NCBI GenBank assembly: GCA_002748705.1
Contig: PDSZ01000023.1
Coordinates: forward strand, 135,542 to 199,541
Reading direction: 5' to 3'
Length of the DNA stretch: 64,000 bases
DNA from: Candidatus Fermentibacterota bacterium
GTDB taxonomy: Bacteria > Fermentibacterota > Fermentibacteria > Fermentibacterales > Fermentibacteraceae
Below are positions 40,087 to 60,627 of this stretch, piece by piece. Position 1 is the first letter of the stretch; every line of letters begins with the position of its first letter. The notes below the pieces were generated by a model. It saw nothing but the letters and a program-made list of their open reading frames with translations, was not told the origin of the DNA and made no database searches. Made by a program: the position numbers and the translations under genes.

Positions 40087-43000
40087 ATGAGGTACATTAT
40101 GAGAATATCTGTGCTGCTGCTTTCTGCGTTCACGGCTTCGGGCAGCTGGATTGAGTTCAACGCAGGAGCTTCAGACGGTTCAGAACCTGTGATCAGTCAT
40201 GGAGAAACAACTCAGGATAACATTCTCTTTGATGTAGAGCTGAGAGGTCTTGATTCTCAGGAGATCCTCCATGAATCAGTTGAGTATTCCAGGTATTCCG
40301 GAACACCGGGAGTTCGCATGTACTCTGAAGCAGGTTATCCGGAAGTCCCGGTTGTTACCTGCTTCGTTGCCGTTCCAGACAATGTGGCGCTTTCTCTTGA
40401 ATCATCAAGATCATGCTCGGATCATCTGGAGAATACAGTGGTGTATCCGGCGCCTTGTCTTGAACTGGTCACTGAAGGCGCATCAACTTATTACAAAGAA
40501 GTGTTTCAGAAGAACTCTTCAGCCTACTCCTCAACTGAGTGGTTCCCCGCAGTTGGCGCTGAGATTTCAGGTGAATTCAGACTGAGGGATCAGAGAGTGG
40601 CAGTTGTTGATGTGTATCCTGTGCAGTTCCTGGCCTCGGAGGACAGCCTCAGGGTATGGAGCGATATTCAGCTCAATATCTCTTTCAGCGAATCAGCTCC
40701 TGTTGTCAGTGTTTCCGATCTGGGTCCTTACGAGAGGCTGATCGGAAACACACTTGTCGGCTATGATCCCGATCCTCTGCCGTATACGGCCTCTCCGACT
40801 CAGGGAAGCGTTTACAGACCGGCTGACCTTACAGTAGCCCCGCCTGAGATCCCCGATTATGTGATCATCGTTGCCGGAGGTCTGGATGGTCCCTGGGTCG
40901 ATGCTCTTGCAAACCACAGGGCTCAGCTCAACGGTTTTGATGTACTGATAGCCACATCCGATAAAATCTTCTGGCAGTTCAGAACTAATGAGCCAATCAT
41001 TACTCCGAACATGATCAGGGACTTCACTGAGACTCTATGGAACTTCGGAACACCAGGGGACAGACCCTCATACCTTCTGCTGATCGGTGACCATGAAGAT
41101 GGATCATGTACCACCATCGGTCCATGGTTCCTCCCTACAGCGGAAAGCTCCTGCGGGTTCGGCAATGACGAGTGGTATGCCTACTTCGACGAACCCAGAA
41201 GCGTTTATGCGTCAATGCCCGATATGATTGTAGGCAGACTCTCAACCCGGGAAGCTGCTAATCTGCAGGACATGATAGATCTGATTGAGGAGTACGAAGC
41301 TCCGGTAACAATTTCAGTTCCGGCTAATATGCAGTACAGAAGATACATCACACGACTGGCGGGCACGGAAACAGATCACTGGTATCCTTCCGCCCGGTGG
41401 ACGAAAGCGCTTGCAGACTGGCTGGGCTACCAGTGGGATAACTATCACTGCGGTGACGGAGAGGATGATCCTCCCAACAGTGACGGCAGCGATATGACCA
41501 GCGCTGAGTGGGTTGATGCCTGCAACACTGTGTTCAACAGGGGATCACAGGTTGCATTCTATGCTGACCATGGTGACTTTCATCTGTTCAATGCGGGATT
41601 GAATGAAGAATTAGAGAACTTCGGAGTTCCTGATTCATGTTTCGACAACCTTGATGTTGCTGATCTCGGAACATTTGCCGATCACTTGCCGCCATTCATT
41701 CTGATGTTATGCTGCTCTTCCGGGACATTCAACCACACACAGTATCAGCATGACAACAGGTCTCCCGGTATCTGCCTTTGCCGTGAGCCTGTCAATCAGA
41801 CCTCTCTACCTCCTTATGACCTTGGTCCTGCCTGCCTTGCCGAGGAGTTTATAAGAAACACGGATGGTGGTGCTATCGGAGTTTTCGCAAGCAGCTATGA
41901 ATCGGGGAACAGCGGCTACCTTGGACGAGCCATTATCAGAAACCTGTTCTGTAACGGTCATACGAGACAGGGAGACGCCATTGCCGCTGGCAGACTTGAT
42001 ATGCTGTACTGGTATTGGGTGGGTGAATGGTTCAACAAAGATCTGGGCAGGTTTAACCTGTTCGGTGACCCTGCTCTTGATACAGGAGATCGAGTCAAAT
42101 TCAGGGACCATTGCGATCTGATCATCAGTCCTGATGATATGACTCTTAACATATACCCCACTATGACTGTTGACGGAAGCGGAACAGTTGTTTTCAGTGT
42201 AGTTGTCAGAAACGCAGGATGGCTGGCTGCCGGTCCATTCATGCTGACAATGGAAATCACTGATAATTCCGGCATGTCCGAGATGCTTTCAAACCAATGC
42301 AGCGGCCTTGAACCAGGTGTTGAAACCAAAATTGATTTTGTCTGGGAGGCCACCTGGTTTACTCCTCCCGGCATTCTGAATATCAAAGTGACTGCTTCTG
42401 ATCCTGGAGGTCAGACTCCTGATTCGTGGCTGCCAAACAACTCCGCAGAGACCGAGTTCAAGATTAGAGACTTCTATCCCAATCAGGACGGGTGGCCTGT
42501 TCCCTTGAATCAATCCGTTCTTGTTCCTCCAGTCCTCTGTGATTTCGATGGCAACTCTTCCAACGGCCTGGAGATAGTTTTAGCAACCAGTCAGAAGCTC
42601 CTTGTCTTTGACGACAGCTCTCCTCAGTGGCCAGTTTGGGAATCTGACAGAAGACAGCTGTTTCATAACTTAGGAACAGGATTGCGGGCTACTGTTCCCG
42701 TAGCAGGTAATGTCTGTGGAAATGCTGATCCGGAAATAGTGATCGACACAAAGACTCATCTCCTGGTATACAGTAACACCTCCACTTCACCTGTTGCATC
42801 TTTCTCTCATGCAGGCGGCTGGTTTAGAACGATTCATTCAGTGAGCCTTGGAGACTTTGTCAGCGAAAGCTCCCTGGAGACCCGTGACGAAGTCGTAGTG
42901 ATCAGGGATGATGATCTGACAGTGTTTGATGTGTCTGGATCTTCCCTTGTTCCCATAAGAACTAAGCAGTTGCCAGGTATCTCTAATGCTCTTTTAATTA

Positions 43001-43800
43001 ACTCATGGTCTGCCCTTGAGGATGTAAACGGGGACGGCACTCCGGAAATCATAACACGGGTAAAATGGTATACTGTGGGCAGCCCGCCCCAGACCGAGTA
43101 CTATGTATACGATTACGCTGCAGATTCCTTTATTTCCCAGCGGGAATGGCAGGAAAACTGGGTAACTATCCCTGCTGTCGGAGGTCTTTCCGGAGGAAAC
43201 ATGATAGCAGTTCCAACTGACGAATCCGCTCAGTTCAGCAACCCTGCATGGCTCCTGAATCCTGTAAATCTTGCCACACAGGTGCCCTGCCAGGGCAATC
43301 CCGGCAGGGAATCGTACCATGTGCCATACTGTGTCATGGCCGACTGGGACCCGACTCATCATGGGCCAGACCATGTAATAGCCAATACTGAGAACCAGTG
43401 TTTTGCTTGGAACGCAAATGGTTATCACAGATCGAACTTCCCTTACCTTTACACAGATGAAGGCCTTTCTCAACCACCTTTCCCTGCCCTTGGTGAACTG
43501 AATGATCAGGATGATAATGAATATGCAGATATACTTGCTGCAACGCAGGAGGGTGTGGTATACGGGATATCCAGTGGTGGTAATACCCTTATTGATCTCG
43601 GTTTTCCTTACACCCTTCCTTCTTCTGTTCAGGGAGGTTTTGTCATAGCAGACATTGACCTGGACGGGAAGGTTGAGGTTGTCTTCGGAACCATGGACAA
43701 TTACCTTCATGTGTGGGAACTGGGAAGCTGTTCAACCGGTTACGCCCCATGGCCGCAGTGTCAGCATGACGCTGCAAGAACAGGAGTTCTGGAGGAGTAA
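40087..43800 (+). CDS. C25 (gingipain-like) cysteine peptidase with FG-GAP-type C-terminal region
   Basis: The 1237-residue protein starts MRYIMRISVLLLSAFTASG, a signal peptide, after GGGGG. After a propeptide-like beta domain, a peptidase C25 domain runs from about residue 255 to 670. It begins PDYVIIVAGGLDGPWVDAL and includes LLLIGDHEDGS. The catalytic His495 is in YADHGDFHLF and the nucleophile Cys543 in LMLCCSSGTF, followed by EEFIRNTDGGAIGVFASS and LFGDPALD. The rest holds an Ig-like segment and FG-GAP-like blades (DVNGDGTPEIITR, DIDLDGKVEVVFG). It should be an extracellular protease. No sorting domain is visible at the end (PQCQHDAARTGVLEE). Confidence 0.87.
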   Translation: MRYIMRISVLLLSAFTASGSWIEFNAGASDGSEPVISHGETTQDNILFDVELRGLDSQEILHESVEYSRYSGTPGVRMYSEAGYPEVPVVTCFVAVPDNVALSLESSRSCSDHLENTVVYPAPCLELVTEGASTYYKEVFQKNSSAYSSTEWFPAVGAEISGEFRLRDQRVAVVDVYPVQFLASEDSLRVWSDIQLNISFSESAPVVSVSDLGPYERLIGNTLVGYDPDPLPYTASPTQGSVYRPADLTVAPPEIPDYVIIVAGGLDGPWVDALANHRAQLNGFDVLIATSDKIFWQFRTNEPIITPNMIRDFTETLWNFGTPGDRPSYLLLIGDHEDGSCTTIGPWFLPTAESSCGFGNDEWYAYFDEPRSVYASMPDMIVGRLSTREAANLQDMIDLIEEYEAPVTISVPANMQYRRYITRLAGTETDHWYPSARWTKALADWLGYQWDNYHCGDGEDDPPNSDGSDMTSAEWVDACNTVFNRGSQVAFYADHGDFHLFNAGLNEELENFGVPDSCFDNLDVADLGTFADHLPPFILMLCCSSGTFNHTQYQHDNRSPGICLCREPVNQTSLPPYDLGPACLAEEFIRNTDGGAIGVFASSYESGNSGYLGRAIIRNLFCNGHTRQGDAIAAGRLDMLYWYWVGEWFNKDLGRFNLFGDPALDTGDRVKFRDHCDLIISPDDMTLNIYPTMTVDGSGTVVFSVVVRNAGWLAAGPFMLTMEITDNSGMSEMLSNQCSGLEPGVETKIDFVWEATWFTPPGILNIKVTASDPGGQTPDSWLPNNSAETEFKIRDFYPNQDGWPVPLNQSVLVPPVLCDFDGNSSNGLEIVLATSQKLLVFDDSSPQWPVWESDRRQLFHNLGTGLRATVPVAGNVCGNADPEIVIDTKTHLLVYSNTSTSPVASFSHAGGWFRTIHSVSLGDFVSESSLETRDEVVVIRDDDLTVFDVSGSSLVPIRTKQLPGISNALLINSWSALEDVNGDGTPEIITRVKWYTVGSPPQTEYYVYDYAADSFISQREWQENWVTIPAVGGLSGGNMIAVPTDESAQFSNPAWLLNPVNLATQVPCQGNPGRESYHVPYCVMADWDPTHHGPDHVIANTENQCFAWNANGYHRSNFPYLYTDEGLSQPPFPALGELNDQDDNEYADILAATQEGVVYGISSGGNTLIDLGFPYTLPSSVQGGFVIADIDLDGKVEVVFGTMDNYLHVWELGSCSTGYAPWPQCQHDAARTGVLEE

Positions 43801-56096: not shown

Positions 56097-57019
56097 TGAA
56101 GAAAGCCTTATGGGCAGTTGCTGCAGCCATTGCCGTCTACACTGTTCTGGTGCTCCATTCAGATATGGGAAAGGTTTCAGATGCGGCAGGTGCGATTCAC
56201 CCTGGCTGTATACCTCTCTTCCTGATACTTCCTTTAGCCAATTACTATCTCAGATATCTCAAGTGGCAGTATTTTCTCAGAAGAGTTAAAGTTATTGTTC
56301 CTGCCGTAGAGAGCCTTCGTGTTTTCATTGCCGGTTTCTCCATGACAGTATCTCCAGGGAAAATGGGTGAGCTGCTTAAATGCGCTCTTCTGAAAAAAAT
56401 GAGGGGCGTGCCGGTGGAGACCACAGGTTCTGTGGTGGTTGCAGAAAGGCTTACAGATCTGATAAGCATGGTTCTGCTGGCCCTTGCAGGGGCGCTTGTC
56501 ACCGGTAGTTCCCTCGGTATTCCCGCTTCCATTGCAGGAACTGTTTTCGTTGCATCAGCCATGTTCTTTCTTCTTAACCGCAGTGCCTGGAATCTCTTTG
56601 AGAGGGTGACAATGAAGATTCCATTCATGAGGAAAAGGAGCCATCTCTTTCTGGGTTTCAGAGAGGCTGCAGTGGCTCTTCTGGATGTGAGAAGCATGGC
56701 GGTTTCAGTTCCTCTGGGAATGCTCTCATGGGGAATAGAGGCAATGGTGCTCTCTGTGGCTGCTGCTTCCATGGGAGCTTCTCTGCCCTGGGGCGCTGCA
56801 CTTCTCTCACATGCTGCAGGAAGCGTAGCCGGCGCTGTTTCAATGATTCCAGGGGGCCTTGGGCTCACAGAGATAACCATAGACGGCATTATGAGCGGCT
56901 ATATGCCTGAAGCTGTATCTACTGCAACGACCCTTCTTATGAGATTTGCAACACTGTGGTTCAGCGTTCTTCTGGGAGTGGCTGCACTTGCTGACCTTAA
57001 ACGAAGGAACAGGGATTAA
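56096..57019 (+). CDS. Lysylphosphatidylglycerol synthase TM region-like membrane protein (UPF0104)
   Basis: The 307-residue protein has about seven membrane helices with the family marks NYYLRYLKWQYFLRRV near residue 50, MTVSPGKMGELLKCALLKKM near residue 84, VVVAERLTDLISMVLLA near residue 117 and AVSMIPGGLGLTEITIDGIM near residue 245. These mark the LPG_synthase_TM/UPF0104 family, whose members are linked to lipid or lipid-sugar transfer across the membrane. There is no aminoacyl-transferase domain. Its stop overlaps that of the convergent peptide gene. Confidence 0.85.
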   Translation: MKKALWAVAAAIAVYTVLVLHSDMGKVSDAAGAIHPGCIPLFLILPLANYYLRYLKWQYFLRRVKVIVPAVESLRVFIAGFSMTVSPGKMGELLKCALLKKMRGVPVETTGSVVVAERLTDLISMVLLALAGALVTGSSLGIPASIAGTVFVASAMFFLLNRSAWNLFERVTMKIPFMRKRSHLFLGFREAAVALLDVRSMAVSVPLGMLSWGIEAMVLSVAAASMGASLPWGAALLSHAAGSVAGAVSMIPGGLGLTEITIDGIMSGYMPEAVSTATTLLMRFATLWFSVLLGVAALADLKRRNRD

Positions 57020-57282
57020 AGGCCGCTGCCCACATCTCCAGGATTGATAAGCCTTGAACTCTCTGAGGACTGGCTGCCGTTGTTGAAAAGCCTGTTGGAG
57101 TTCACGCTTCCGCCCATGCCCGGGCAGAGAGGGGCTGAGTTGGGGTTACCTCCTGAAGTACAGTTGTTGGAACCGGAAGAAGGTGTACTGCCGGAACTGC
57201 ACTCTGCGTTCCAGCCGTTTTCTGCCGCATCCACTATTCCAACCAGTACAGGCGGAGAATACGATTCAGGAAAAAGGTTCAT
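57016..57282 (-). CDS. Candidate RiPP precursor peptide, Ser/Gly/Asn-rich with three cysteines
   Basis: The best start is the ATG at 57282, nine bases after GGAG, giving 88 residues; a TTG six or nine bases earlier is possible. A short leader (MNLFPESYSPPVLVGIVDAA, residues 1-20) is followed by a core very rich in Ser, Gly, Asn and Pro, with Cys28, Cys41 and Cys53 in AECSSGS, NNCTSGG and PLCPGMGG. There is no membrane helix or classical signal peptide. It is the last gene of a minus-strand cassette with two radical SAM enzymes, a PqqD-like protein, a kinase-like protein and a peptidase. This context and composition suggest it is the modified peptide. I cannot match the sequence to a known family. 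Its stop lies on that of the convergent gene. Confidence 0.6.
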   Translation of the reverse strand: MNLFPESYSPPVLVGIVDAAENGWNAECSSGSTPSSGSNNCTSGGNPNSAPLCPGMGGSVNSNRLFNNGSQSSESSRLINPGDVGSGL

Positions 57283-57324
57283 CTTCAACAACTCCTGTCC
57301 TTGCTCGCAGAATGTGTATCTTAC

Positions 57325-57363
57325 AACCTGCCATGACCTGACTGTTCAGGAAAGATGGCAGTT
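57325..57363 (-). promoter_or_regulatory. Stem-loop before the precursor peptide gene
   Basis: On the plus strand AACCTGCCAT (57325-57334) pairs with ATGGCAGTT (57355-57363) with one bulged base, and inside it CCTGA (57337-57341) pairs with TCAGG (57346-57350), leaving a four-base loop. It lies between the peptidase stop (57381) and the peptide start (57282) and is transcribed from the minus strand. No T-run follows in that direction, so it is more likely an RNA-processing or stability element than a terminator. A smaller hairpin AATACT/AGTATT lies at 57377-57393. Confidence 0.65.
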
Positions 57364-57380
57364 TTCACTGCTCAACAATA

Positions 57381-57770
57381 CTACCACAGTATTTTTCTGA
57401 CAATAGCGCACCATATCCTTACCACAGGTTTCGGAGCAAGCCACTGCCTGATACGAATTTTTCCCACAGGTACATATCGTCCCCTTCTCAGTACCCCTGT
57501 TACAACCGGCAGTTTCTGCGAACATTTAAAAGTCCTTCTGCCTCTGTCGGTTCCGGAACGGTCTCCTGATGAGATGATGTGCACTTCGCTGCCTGAAAAG
57601 CTGACAGAGTTTATTCTGTGAACAGCTGAACAGCTCTTTCCTGGAAAGACAGCTATCATTCCCTCTTTCAAGTTGCAGGTGTTTTTCTCCTCAGCTCTGA
57701 GAATGTCTCCTGGAATAAGGTTCGGCCACATGGAAAAACCTCTGATACCGTTCTTAATTGTTCTGCTCAA
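57381..57770 (-). CDS. S24/S26-like serine peptidase (S26B/SipW type)
   Basis: The most likely start is TTG at 57770, 17 bases before the end of the kinase-like gene, giving 129 residues; a longer version would lie fully inside that gene. It shows GIRGFSMWPNLIPGDIL with the nucleophile-type Ser near residue 13, LKEGMIAVFPG, and AVHRINSV near residue 50. In the latter a His stands where bacterial signal peptidase I has Lys, as in S26B (SipW/Sec11-like) peptidases. A hydrophobic tail is weak. It could cut the leader of the peptide encoded next. The start is not certain. Confidence 0.68.
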   Translation of the reverse strand: MSRTIKNGIRGFSMWPNLIPGDILRAEEKNTCNLKEGMIAVFPGKSCSAVHRINSVSFSGSEVHIISSGDRSGTDRGRRTFKCSQKLPVVTGVLRRGRYVPVGKIRIRQWLAPKPVVRIWCAIVRKILW

Positions 57771-58287
57771 GGGTCCATTCCAGGAGTTTTTCAGGGGTTT
57801 CGTCAAGATGGTATCTGAGAATATAGAAGGGGAAGTCCTTTGTGAGCTTTTCCAGAAAACGCATTGCCTGCTTCTGTTCATTGCTGTGAAGCTCAGACCA
57901 GGCCATTACAGGATTGTTTACAGTGATTCTGTAGAAAGCATACTCCGGTGATACCTGTATCAGCATTCCAGGGGCCCCCTTCTCCAGAAAGAAAACAGCC
58001 TTCAGCGGTGCTCCTCCGATGTTTTCAACTCCTGTTCCCTGTTTCATGGAACCACATGGGAGAGATCTTATAATACTGTCTGTTCCCTTTGCAACAACGA
58101 CACTGTCATCCCCTATTCCTGCAAACATGGATCTGGTCAGAATGGTTCTTATTGTTGATTTTCCACCTCCTGAAGGGGCCAGAAAAAGCAGAGAGAAATT
58201 CATTTCTCCCACTGCTGAGGCATGAAGCACAGCACCGTCAGGGAGAACAGCTCTGTTCTGTGCCCTGAGAATGAATTTGTCCATCAT
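57754..58287 (-). CDS. HPr kinase-like P-loop protein (ScmC-like)
   Basis: The 177-residue protein is the C-terminal, catalytic part of an HPr kinase/phosphorylase fold only. There is a short start (LPDGAVLHASAVGE), the P-loop LAPSGGGKST at residues 36-45, GIGDDSVVVAKG near residue 57 where HprK has its acidic motif, and RSLPCGSMKQG near residue 74. Proteins of this kind recur in clusters with PqqD-like proteins and radical SAM enzymes, and one in the SynChlorMet cassette is called ScmC. Which molecule it phosphorylates, if any, is unknown. The start overlaps the radical SAM gene stop (TGATG). Confidence 0.75.
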   Translation of the reverse strand: MMDKFILRAQNRAVLPDGAVLHASAVGEMNFSLLFLAPSGGGKSTIRTILTRSMFAGIGDDSVVVAKGTDSIIRSLPCGSMKQGTGVENIGGAPLKAVFFLEKGAPGMLIQVSPEYAFYRITVNNPVMAWSELHSNEQKQAMRFLEKLTKDFPFYILRYHLDETPEKLLEWTLEQNN

Positions 58288-59324
58288 TTTCGTACCAGCC
58301 TGGTTTCAGGGAAAAGCCCGGCTTCCCATGCTGCCTGGCATATCATGTCCGGCGCTGTAAGGGAACCTCCTGTTTCGTTGTTGTTCACCACACATCTTCC
58401 AAGGCATGAATCTCTGTGCATGCACATGGAGCAGACACCCTGAATGCTTTCAGGAAGGGAGTTTCTTATTCTTTTCAGTATCGGTGAGTTTCTCCAGGCT
58501 TCAGCTACAGTGGTTTTCGGGAACCTGCCCCATGCCATTTCCTTTCTGGAGAAACCTACGCCGCACAGGGAGAAGGTACCGTCAGGCAGTACTCCCAGAA
58601 GATTCCTTACAGGGCAGTATCCCAGGTATTTCAGTCTTTCCGGCGGAAGAAGGGCTCCTGGTATTGAAGGCTGAACCCACAGGGGCAGATTTTCTGTAAG
58701 CCTTCTGAAGTAGTCAAGCACATTCTTTATGTTCATTTTTTGGTAGAAGTTGTTGCCAGTGCCTCTTCCTGTGGGAGTTATGAAGTTGATTTTCAGGTTG
58801 TAAACACCAAGTTCCGCCACAAGACCGGCCATTTCCGCAACAGGTTCGATGGATGTATCAGAGACGGACATTATCACCTGGGTTCTGATACCTGCTTCCA
58901 CCAGCTTTCGGCAGAAACCTGTTGTCTTTTTCCATGCGCCGTTCATCTTTCTGAACGAGTCATGCACTGAAGCGTCAGCACTGTCCAGACTTACTGATAC
59001 AAAGTCTGGAGGGTTCTTCTTCATCTTTTCCATGAGTCCCGGAGGGTCCAGTGTACCGTTGGTCTCAAAGGCCACTGTGTCAAACCGCTGCCTGATGAAA
59101 GAGTAGAGGAGAGCTATCTCAGGATATAGAAGCGGTTCGCCGCCGGTGAGCTTTACACTGACGCAGCCAAGCTCTTCAGCCTGGATGAGAAGAGCCTTCC
59201 ACATGTTCAGTGTCATGGTTTCTCCAGTACTGCCTCCTTCATTGACCCAGCAGTGCCTGCAGTGGAGGTTGCACCCTCCTGCAGGATTTATGTAGAGGAC
59301 TTTAAGTGGTACTGTATTGCTCAT
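58284..59324 (-). CDS. Radical SAM/SPASM peptide-modifying enzyme (first of two)
   Basis: The start is the ATG at 59324, which overlaps the stop of the other radical SAM gene (TAATG); the protein is 346 residues. The SAM-cluster cysteines are C18, C22 and C25 in GGCNLHCRHCW, and KLTGGEPLLYPE is the glycyl-type SAM-binding strand. The C-terminal half has SPASM-type cysteines: YCPVRNLLGVLPDG, LCGVGF, and CSMCMHRDSCLGRC, then a late MIC. These would hold two auxiliary [4Fe-4S] clusters. Such enzymes make thioether, C-C or epimer changes in peptides. It resembles ScmE/ScmF of the SynChlorMet cassette. The reaction is not known. Confidence 0.85.
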   Translation of the reverse strand: MSNTVPLKVLYINPAGGCNLHCRHCWVNEGGSTGETMTLNMWKALLIQAEELGCVSVKLTGGEPLLYPEIALLYSFIRQRFDTVAFETNGTLDPPGLMEKMKKNPPDFVSVSLDSADASVHDSFRKMNGAWKKTTGFCRKLVEAGIRTQVIMSVSDTSIEPVAEMAGLVAELGVYNLKINFITPTGRGTGNNFYQKMNIKNVLDYFRRLTENLPLWVQPSIPGALLPPERLKYLGYCPVRNLLGVLPDGTFSLCGVGFSRKEMAWGRFPKTTVAEAWRNSPILKRIRNSLPESIQGVCSMCMHRDSCLGRCVVNNNETGGSLTAPDMICQAAWEAGLFPETRLVRK

Positions 59325-60376
59325 TAAAGATTTTCCAGTGCCAGTTTCAGGCATGATGACCTGTCTTTCCCTGTACCTGCCGCAGCTGAAATTCCCTCAA
59401 CAGGGCAGCCTCCTGAGCACCAGGGGAGATACCGGCAGCTGGAACACTCCGGATTGCTGCTTCTTGTTCTCTGAAGGAAAGTGCTGAACTTCTTCATTGC
59501 AGGCCCCTGAAGGATTGACTGAAGTGATTCGCCGGAGGCGAGGTTGCCTAGAATAATTTCAGGAAGATGGTCGCAGGGAGTTACTGAACCGTCCGGAAAA
59601 ACAGATATCCTTCCAGTGCCTCCGCCGCAGCGGTATGCCCTGTCAGATGATTCCGGAATCTCATTACGGAGGAACTTGCAGGCTCTCTCCCTCATATCCA
59701 GAACAGTTCCCTGTATGAAGCTGCCATGGGAGGCTTTCATAGCTTCCAGCCCGGCAACTGAAACCTCCAGCTGTTCCCTGGAAGGTATCATTGCTTCGTT
59801 TAGCCCCGGGCCTGCAAGGAGGAACGAGTTGAATTTTATCCATTCCCCTCCAAGAGCCCTGGCAAGCTGTGCTGTCTGGTGAAGTCTGTGGGCGTTAAGG
59901 CTGGTTACAGTGCAGTAGAAGCCAAAGGGAAGACCTGCTGCTCTCAGTTTTCCAACACCTGTAACAAGTTTGCCGAAAACTCCCCTGCCTCTCTGTGCAT
60001 CAACAGTTTCCTGATCAGGACCGTCAAGACTTATCATGAATTCGTTTAGATGAGCAGAGGTTTTTACCACTGTTTCTATCACAGACGGAGTAATCAGAGT
60101 AGCATTGGTGTTTATGCTGAACCGGAAGGGTCTCGCAGCTATTTCTTTTATGAAATCTGTGAAGTCAGGTCTTGCAAGTGGTTCACCGCCTGTCACCGTG
60201 AGTTTTATCAGTTTGTTGCTTACCAGTTTATCAAGTATTTCAATCCATGCAGATAGAGGCAGATCTCTCCGCAGGGCACCGTGGCTGTTAACAGAGCAGT
60301 GTCTGCAGGTGAGATTGCATCTCCCTGTTATGAGGATGTTGGCCTCTCTGGGAGATACCCAGTAGGAATCGGTCAA
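59324..60376 (-). CDS. Radical SAM/SPASM peptide-modifying enzyme (second of two)
   Basis: The TTG at 60376 overlaps the PqqD-like gene stop (TTGA), and the protein is 350 residues. SAM-cluster cysteines are C20, C24 and C27 in GRCNLTCRHC, and TVTGGEPLARPDF follows near residue 62. The SPASM region near residues 245-345 has YRCGGGTGRISVFPDG, TPCDHLPEIILGNL, and CSSCRYLPWCSGGCPVEG, then SSCLKL, the full seven-cysteine type pattern as far as can be seen. It differs clearly from the neighbour (about 25% alike by eye) and may modify another position of the peptide. Confidence 0.87.
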   Translation of the reverse strand: MTDSYWVSPREANILITGRCNLTCRHCSVNSHGALRRDLPLSAWIEILDKLVSNKLIKLTVTGGEPLARPDFTDFIKEIAARPFRFSINTNATLITPSVIETVVKTSAHLNEFMISLDGPDQETVDAQRGRGVFGKLVTGVGKLRAAGLPFGFYCTVTSLNAHRLHQTAQLARALGGEWIKFNSFLLAGPGLNEAMIPSREQLEVSVAGLEAMKASHGSFIQGTVLDMRERACKFLRNEIPESSDRAYRCGGGTGRISVFPDGSVTPCDHLPEIILGNLASGESLQSILQGPAMKKFSTFLQRTRSSNPECSSCRYLPWCSGGCPVEGISAAAGTGKDRSSCLKLALENL

Positions 60377-60627
60377 ACCAGAACACCCTTCTCCCGCATT
60401 TCCGAGAGGAAAGCATCAAGATCTGACTGGATGTTTTTTTCTTCAGGATAGAGTTCGTGAAGACGGTTCAGAATTTCGTCTCTGTCAGCGCCTCTGTCTA
60501 TCATGTCACAGATTCCGAAGGCAACCCCTTCAGATACTTGAAGAGCCCCTGTATCAATATTGAAAAGAATGCCGCCTGAAGGCTCTTTTCTGAAAACCAC
60601 ACCTTTGGCGAATTCCAGTTTTTCCAT
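60373..60627 (-). CDS. PqqD-like peptide recognition protein (RRE)
   Basis: The ATG at 60627, after CGGAGATG, gives 84 residues. It has the PqqD/RRE winged-helix pattern: VVFRKEPSGGILFNIDTGALQVSE forms the strands, then GVAFGICDMIDRGADRDEILNRL, and ends with a helix DLDAFLSEMREKGVLV. These small proteins bind the leader of a RiPP precursor and pass it to a radical SAM enzyme. It is the first gene of the cassette, transcribed toward 57016. Confidence 0.85.
   Translation of the reverse strand: MEKLEFAKGVVFRKEPSGGILFNIDTGALQVSEGVAFGICDMIDRGADRDEILNRLHELYPEEKNIQSDLDAFLSEMREKGVLV

Follow-up and report, generated by a model that had tools for sequence, protein, structure and literature searches.

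We have identified, in a 64,000-nucleotide stretch of contig PDSZ01000023.1 from a Candidatus Fermentibacterota bacterium (the whole stretch is called the window below), a cassette of six open reading frames (ORFs) that very probably makes a ribosomally synthesized and post-translationally modified peptide (RiPP) and represents a compact Fermentibacterota branch of the SynChlorMet-like systems, matured along the pathway proposed below. A leader-bearing precursor is encoded, and co-occurs in other genomes, with a PqqD-like RiPP recognition element (RRE) and tailoring enzymes, and the assignment to RRE-dependent RiPP cassettes is thus supported. The case is built on homology, conserved residues, gene linkage and the co-occurrence of enzymes and precursor. 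The ORFs lie on the minus strand within 57016-60627 in the order PqqD-like protein, ScmE-like and ScmF-like radical S-adenosylmethionine (SAM) proteins, HPr-kinase (HprK)-like protein, peptidase and peptide. This is the order given in a preliminary description of the window, and the features it listed (two CxxxCxxC sites, SPASM cysteines, a P-loop, S26-like peptidase motifs and a small Ser/Gly/Asn-rich ORF) are all present:

60373..60627, minus strand: PqqD-like RRE, 84 aa, in the ScmD-like position (PF05402 above its cut-off)
59324..60376, minus strand: ScmE-like radical SAM/SPASM protein, 350 aa, with a TTG start overlapping the PqqD stop (TIGR04250 the best model; PF04055, PF13186; tree)
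58284..59354, minus strand: ScmF-like radical SAM/SPASM protein, 356 aa (TIGR04251 the best model; tree)
57754..58287, minus strand: short HPr-kinase-like protein, 177 aa, in the ScmC-like position, with H22, K43, D60 and D61 (weak ScmC match; predicted fold)
57381..57770 (ORF open to ATG 57881), minus strand: predicted S26B/archaeal-type signal-peptidase-like serine peptidase, 129 aa from TTG, with S13, H51 and D70 (TIGR02228; residues)
57016..57282, minus strand: predicted precursor peptide, 88 aa (homologues; phylum profile; AGGAG)
57244..57261, minus strand: leader motif YSPPVL (YxxPxL), the proposed RRE-binding site (conserved in 29 compact precursors)
57205..57216, minus strand: GWNA (GWxA), with proposed leader cleavage after the Ala ending at 57205 (in all 29 compact precursors, partly as the search anchor)
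57190..57201, minus strand: first CxxG unit, CSSG, a proposed radical SAM target (conservation of Gly at +3)
57151..57162, minus strand: second CxxG unit, CTSG (repeat units in 28 of 29 compact precursors)
57019..57054, minus strand: conserved C-terminal tail RLINPGDVGSGL (G[LFIR] end in 27 of 29 compact precursors)

Stop/start overlaps occur at four of the five junctions. The preliminary description had the first five junctions overlapping, which is corrected by the 98 bases that separate the peptidase stop (57381) from the peptide ATG (57282); the precursor gene has its own AGGAG at 57296-57292, upstream of that ATG. The ATG behind the AGGAG is probably the start of the peptide, rather than TTG 57291, the first start of the ORF. 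Homologues make ATG 59324, in a TAATG overlap, a more likely start of the ScmF-like gene than 59354, and suggest TTG 57770 (129 residues) rather than ATG 57881 for the peptidase. A promoter scan gave five sites against 3.3 expected, and a terminator scan four against 4.8.

The radical SAM proteins tie the cassette to SynChlorMet. Both contain PF04055 (79.9 and 92.1 bits; cut-off 29.5), and the SPASM domain scores 40.3 bits in the first enzyme, over the cut-off of 21.5, and 20.3, just under it, in the second. Their top NCBIfam models are ScmE (TIGR04250, 136.5 bits) and ScmF (TIGR04251, 247.5 bits), each short of a cut-off of 400; as the preliminary description expected, the best matches are thus models of peptide cassettes. 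In the RRE, PF05402 scores 32.8 bits (cut-off 23.4), with no match at E ≤ 1 to the ScmD model TIGR04248 (cut-off 100 bits) and a single match, at E 0.27, in a sequence search of the PDB. As a control, a Syntrophaceae locus (L011) passes ScmD (110.4 bits, cut-off 100), ScmE (549.1, cut-off 400), ScmF (533.3, cut-off 400) and ScmC (179.3, cut-off 125), and this canonical locus has the same gene set as the window, with the same kind of peptide and peptidase.

At least 842 other proteins match the ScmF-like protein at E ≤ 1e-3 (8000 candidates scored), its named close relatives belonging to Candidatus Aegiribacteria, Sabulitectum and Fermentibacteraceae. No relative turned up when genomes were scanned with only the ScmE-like protein; a search with an ScmF-like alignment did find relatives, and we analysed the best 80 of its 499 confirmed loci, which by their record titles cover about nineteen phylum-level groups. 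We built a quick maximum-likelihood tree from 179 ScmE- and ScmF-like proteins (rows of 330-450 aa, leaving out the ScmF-like pieces of L003 and L102), rooted at the midpoint and without outgroup sequences of further radical SAM families. In it the two paralogues separate at the root, and on each side the compact Fermentibacterota rows (16 ScmE-like and 19 ScmF-like, the window included) form one group with support 100. The CxxxCxxC site and a seven-Cys SPASM pattern are kept in 16/16 and 19/19 of these rows, a count restricted to compact-class rows long enough for the tree. Judged from sequence, the cassette of the window branches off within the SynChlorMet lineage as a divergent form that the curated families do not cover, and is a relative rather than a model-grade member.

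The product of the small gene has three homologues in the database, with identities of 64-81%. When the 80 ScmF loci were searched for a YxxPxL-type site followed by two CxxG units, a motif taken from the window peptide and widened after a first look at the same loci with a looser pattern, 69 ORFs in 55 loci were found, of which 64 stand no more than 3 kb from the ScmF gene. The motif occurs in 78 open frames of the real DNA, against one in reversed sequence and two to seven in ten block shuffles, and the positive loci span a dozen or more phylum-level groups. Dropping three ORFs by eye (one each in L016, L031 and L076) leaves 66 in 53 loci; with the window and L071 peptides these make a set (A2) of 68 members. 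The NCBIfam ScmA model TIGR04252 matches 14 of the 68 at E ≤ 0.01, and the standard precursors are therefore an already known family. The idea of SynChlorMet as a system without a known precursor was rejected, since NCBIfam has ScmA. A TIGR04252 search in four genomes gave no match, nor did it in control genomes.

The anatomy of the precursor is well conserved within the compact class. The leader Pro is present in 28 and the Leu in all of the 29 compact precursors, and the spacing from the Tyr to the first Cys is exactly 20 residues in each of the 28 that extend that far. GWxAxC is found in all 29, a constancy that is partly circular since G, W, A and C were in the search patterns or anchor; the same applies to CxxG in the standard set, where it was part of the search pattern. 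Gly follows the first Cys at +3 in 28/29 compact and 62/64 standard precursors, Pro or Ala stands at +6 in 28/29 compact ones, and the best Ser/Thr position is +8 (23/29). At least two Cxx[G/P] units occur in 28 of the 29, and the tail ends in G[LFIR] in 27. We know of no precedent for this conserved tail; its binding partner may be the kinase, one of the radical SAM enzymes or an export route. Compact precursors have mostly two or three cysteines, the standard ones a median of 5 and up to 14.

Position -2 relative to the first Cys, where compact precursors have their constant Ala, is occupied by Gly, Ala, Ser or Thr in 47 of 64 standard precursors, against 14-32 of 64 at the other nine places from -1 to -10; a small residue is what a signal-peptidase-like enzyme would cut behind. 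Three standard precursors (L018, L067 and L076) have AYAQA, AYAAA or AYAQT directly before the first Cys, resembling the AxA site of signal peptidases. At a Bacteroidetes ScmF locus (L022:8311-9511) five precursors stand in tandem, with near-identical leaders and variable cores.

The precursor also follows the enzymes through the phylum. The ScmF-like protein is found at E ≤ 1e-50 in 29 of 42 Fermentibacterota genomes, and 22 of the 42 fall in what we class as the compact-enzyme type, with kinase ORFs scoring 76-333 bits against a compact profile (at most 18 in standard loci). A profile of 13 compact precursors, used in a search that did not require the GWxAxC residues, detected a precursor in 22 of the 42, nine of which had supplied rows to the profile. 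Enzymes and precursor are both present in 20 genomes, enzymes alone in two, precursor alone in two and neither in 18 (Fisher p 1.5e-7, kinship ignored); without the nine supplying genomes the counts are 11, 2, 2 and 18 (p 2.6e-5, kinship likewise ignored). The homologues and these counts bear out the preliminary expectation that the small gene is conserved with the cassette across genomes, and by its conservation the small gene is the predicted precursor of the cassette and true partner of the enzymes.

The chromosomal place is mostly fixed. Of 12 compact loci with long flanks, 10 have the same tetratricopeptide-repeat gene beside the cassette, and the precursor usually adjoins a PF03706 gene. 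Genome G032 has its five enzyme genes on a different contig, away from their usual neighbours, and keeps the precursor at the ancestral site between a gene for a 132-residue protein and PF03706. The conserved neighbours and G032 together indicate that the system is mostly inherited in place, the precursor being kept when the enzymes move, and a mostly fixed place suggests a standing cellular function, not a fast-changing weapon. In G036 and G038 the enzymes lie on the strand opposite to the precursor, about 4-5 kb and 1.5 kb away, as if the enzyme block had been inverted; G029 and G033 have precursor and enzymes on separate contigs, a separation for which contig ends can account. At L118 (G030) the radical SAM genes are split and the leader start seems to be lost. 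The precursor stands beside the PF03706 membrane-protein gene, though the enzymes are not adjacent, at L126 (G032:C85), L129 (G036), L130 (G031), L131 (G033) and L133 (G038); this proximity may be a functional link or mere synteny.

Two further enzymes complete the cassette. Among the NCBIfam models the HprK-like protein matches ScmC best, though weakly (19.3 bits, E 5.9e-4; cut-off 125), and its sequence profile finds HprK 1jb1 at E 9.3e-4, ranked below P-loops of ABC transporters (4e-4). Its predicted model has a pLDDT (model confidence) of 92.5, and all 46 PDB matches of the model at E ≤ 0.001 are HprK or phosphoenolpyruvate carboxykinase (PEPCK), with loose overlays (query TM-score 0.38-0.62, root-mean-square deviation 3.8-14.3 among the 46). 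H22, K43 and D60 are invariant and D61 is at least 90% conserved in 54 aligned rows. A protein search matches it to 78 others of about the same length with E ≤ 1e-22, to one with 1.5e-9 and to nine longer ones (267-288 residues) with E from 8e-7 to 9e-4. With its P-loop, modelled HprK/PEPCK fold and His-Lys-Asp-Asp residues, the protein is a predicted kinase of the HPr kinase fold.

The peptidase scores 22.9 bits with TIGR02228 (its homologue in L001, 37.2), below the curated cut-off of 51.85. S13, H51 and D70 are invariant in 17 aligned peptidases, 12 from compact and five from standard-class loci, and the predicted peptidase thus has the Ser/His/Asp set of archaeal-type (S26B) signal peptidases. 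A fold predicted without an alignment had a pLDDT of 31.5 and was not used. By profile and residue pattern, an S26-like peptidase is encoded near the ScmF gene in at least 27 of the 80 loci, a lower bound because many contigs are short and because the fused form of L011 was missed: there, a single 536-residue ORF (L011:4343-5953) comprises an S26-like peptidase region (TIGR02228, 43.1 bits against 51.85) followed by ScmC. That fusion and the 27 loci rule out the preliminary description's view of the peptidase as something added to the SynChlorMet set.

For the order of the steps, their chemistry and their sites we rely on the precedent of linear polyphosphorylated peptides (LPP), lasso peptides and radical SAM RiPPs. 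The PqqD-like RRE would bind the YxxPxL leader of the 88-aa precursor and present the precursor to the rest of the enzymes. CxxG units in the core would be the targets of the two SPASM radical SAM enzymes; purely by analogy with other Cys-modifying SPASM enzymes, the likeliest reaction would be a radical C-S (thioether) link from Cys to a nearby carbon. The HPr-kinase-like protein would phosphorylate a Ser or Thr of the core, with the one at +8 from the first Cys as the best candidate. Then the S26B-like Ser/His/Asp peptidase would remove the leader, probably after the Ala of GWxA. The preliminary pathway of recognition, two modifications and cleavage is retained in this scheme; it had left out the kinase step, despite the precedents of LPP and lasso peptides.

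Several observations weigh against this reading. None of the window proteins reaches a SynChlorMet cut-off, and by the model test the cassette is therefore a relative and not a member; the resemblance claimed in the preliminary description is nonetheless supported by ScmE and ScmF as best models, a weak ScmC match and the gene set of L011. The haem enzymes AhbD and NirJ2 are among the further strong matches of the radical SAM enzymes. No NCBIfam model, including ScmA (cut-off 35 bits), recognizes the window precursor at E ≤ 1, and 25 of the 80 ScmF loci are without a motif peptide, among them L002 and L071, which carry a compact precursor that the motif missed. In genomes G010 and G035 the enzymes are present but no precursor was detected, and in G028 and G031 it is the other way round. 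No Ser or Thr is invariant in the 29 compact precursors, one of which lacks the Tyr and two the G[LFIR] end. Of the four flanking window proteins scanned, none is an ABC transporter or a nucleoside triphosphate (NTP) transferase, both of which L011 has.

A quite different product would be a small redox molecule, made as in the pyrroloquinoline quinone (PQQ) and mycofactocin pathways, with GWxAxCxxG as the working part and the rest of the peptide degraded. The PqqD-plus-SPASM architecture, the rank of GWxAxC among the most conserved stretches (in part an effect of the anchor used) and a mostly conserved chromosomal site, which suits a housekeeping product, all agree with it; the many cysteines of the standard relatives and the five precursors of L022 fit a modified peptide better, and we know of no place in the PQQ or mycofactocin pathways for a kinase or a conserved C-terminal tail. 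We consider such a cofactor improbable. The odds are lower again for a linear phosphopeptide pathway in which phosphorylation is the main event, with the two radical SAM proteins in a minor role or inactive: although the RRE, HprK-like kinase, peptidase resembling type I signal peptidases and YxxP precursor are core parts of LPP systems, both radical SAM genes overlap their neighbours and the cluster cysteines are kept in all of the 16 and 19 rows examined, and Cys and the Gly at +3 are the most constant core residues of compact precursors. It is hardly to be expected that the small ORF is no substrate at all and that the enzymes act on another peptide or protein encoded elsewhere, as the two genomes with compact enzymes and no detected precursor might suggest; co-occurrence in 20 genomes, retention of the precursor in G032, the leader motif and the fixed spacing argue for the small ORF.

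The reading of the cassette as a SynChlorMet-like RiPP system can be extended, although we put this forward tentatively and hold it somewhat more likely to fail than to stand. SynChlorMet-type cassettes, in a dozen or more phyla, would make doubly marked peptides, in which radical SAM modification of CxxG repeats is combined with an HprK-type phosphorylation that gates leader removal by the S26B-like peptidase after the small residue at -2 from the first Cys; the Fermentibacterota version would be mostly syntenic and vertically inherited, and its precursor would also bear a conserved C-terminal recognition tail and could be served by enzymes acting in trans. For SynChlorMet cassettes there are protein models, but the open-access literature that we searched, to which our coverage was confined, mentions neither the name nor TIGR04248-TIGR04252; for Fermentibacteria and RiPPs it holds only apparently unrelated work. 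The tie to an LPP-type maturation module gives a pathway found in many anaerobes concrete predicted sites, namely an RRE motif, a cleavage point, a phospho-acceptor and CxxG units, and it defines a compact version whose short precursor would be convenient for testing. Elsewhere in the window, at 40087-43800, a 1237-aa ORF looks by eye like a gingipain-like (C25) secreted peptidase.

With the SynChlorMet set (TIGR04248-TIGR04252: ScmD, ScmC, ScmE, ScmF and ScmA) the window cassette shares the RRE, two SPASM enzymes, the HprK-like protein and a CxxG peptide with a YxxPxL-type leader, as well as the S26-like peptidase found in canonical L011. It differs in the length of the HprK-like ORFs (166-228 aa in compact loci, about 290-312 in the standard loci of the phylum) and of the peptidase ORFs (mostly 128-146 aa against 199), and in the conserved GWxA and C-terminal tail of compact precursors. 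At L001:6261-7409, about 2 kb downstream of a compact cassette, there is an NTP_transf_5 (PF14907) gene, a family also present in L011.

LPP have been described from Bacillota, where their spread is patchy (Popov et al. 2026; PMC13381572). Their systems have an RRE, an HprK-like kinase, an archaeal-type leader peptidase (LppS) that resembles type I signal peptidases and has Ser/His/Asp residues, and a YxxP leader, all four of which have counterparts in the window, and their core further includes an NTP transferase and an MsbA-like transporter (PMC13381572). These further core genes are not among the four scanned flanking proteins, nor were they seen by eye, from one example per cluster, in the gene clusters common to at least three of the 12 compact loci. 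The LPP leader consensus is given as YxxPxVLxHQxIxFET, cut after Thr, with Phe at -3 (PMC13381572); the window sequence GWNA/EC, if cut after Ala, would likewise carry an aromatic residue at -3, with a small residue at -1, whereas the Tyr is at -16 in LPP and at -19 in the window. The terms rSAM, radical S-adenosyl and SPASM are absent from the text of the LPP paper (PMC13381572). With paeninodin-type lasso peptides (PMC9266682, PMC5067487) the window shares a PqqD-like recognition protein, B1 in the lasso systems, and a predicted kinase with the His-Lys-Asp-Asp motif that lasso-peptide kinases require (PMC9266682); the six window genes include no lasso cyclase or B2 peptidase, and the window precursor ends in Leu, not in a phosphorylated Ser. 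The YxxPxL leader of the window belongs to the same motif class as the LPP and lasso leaders in those sources.

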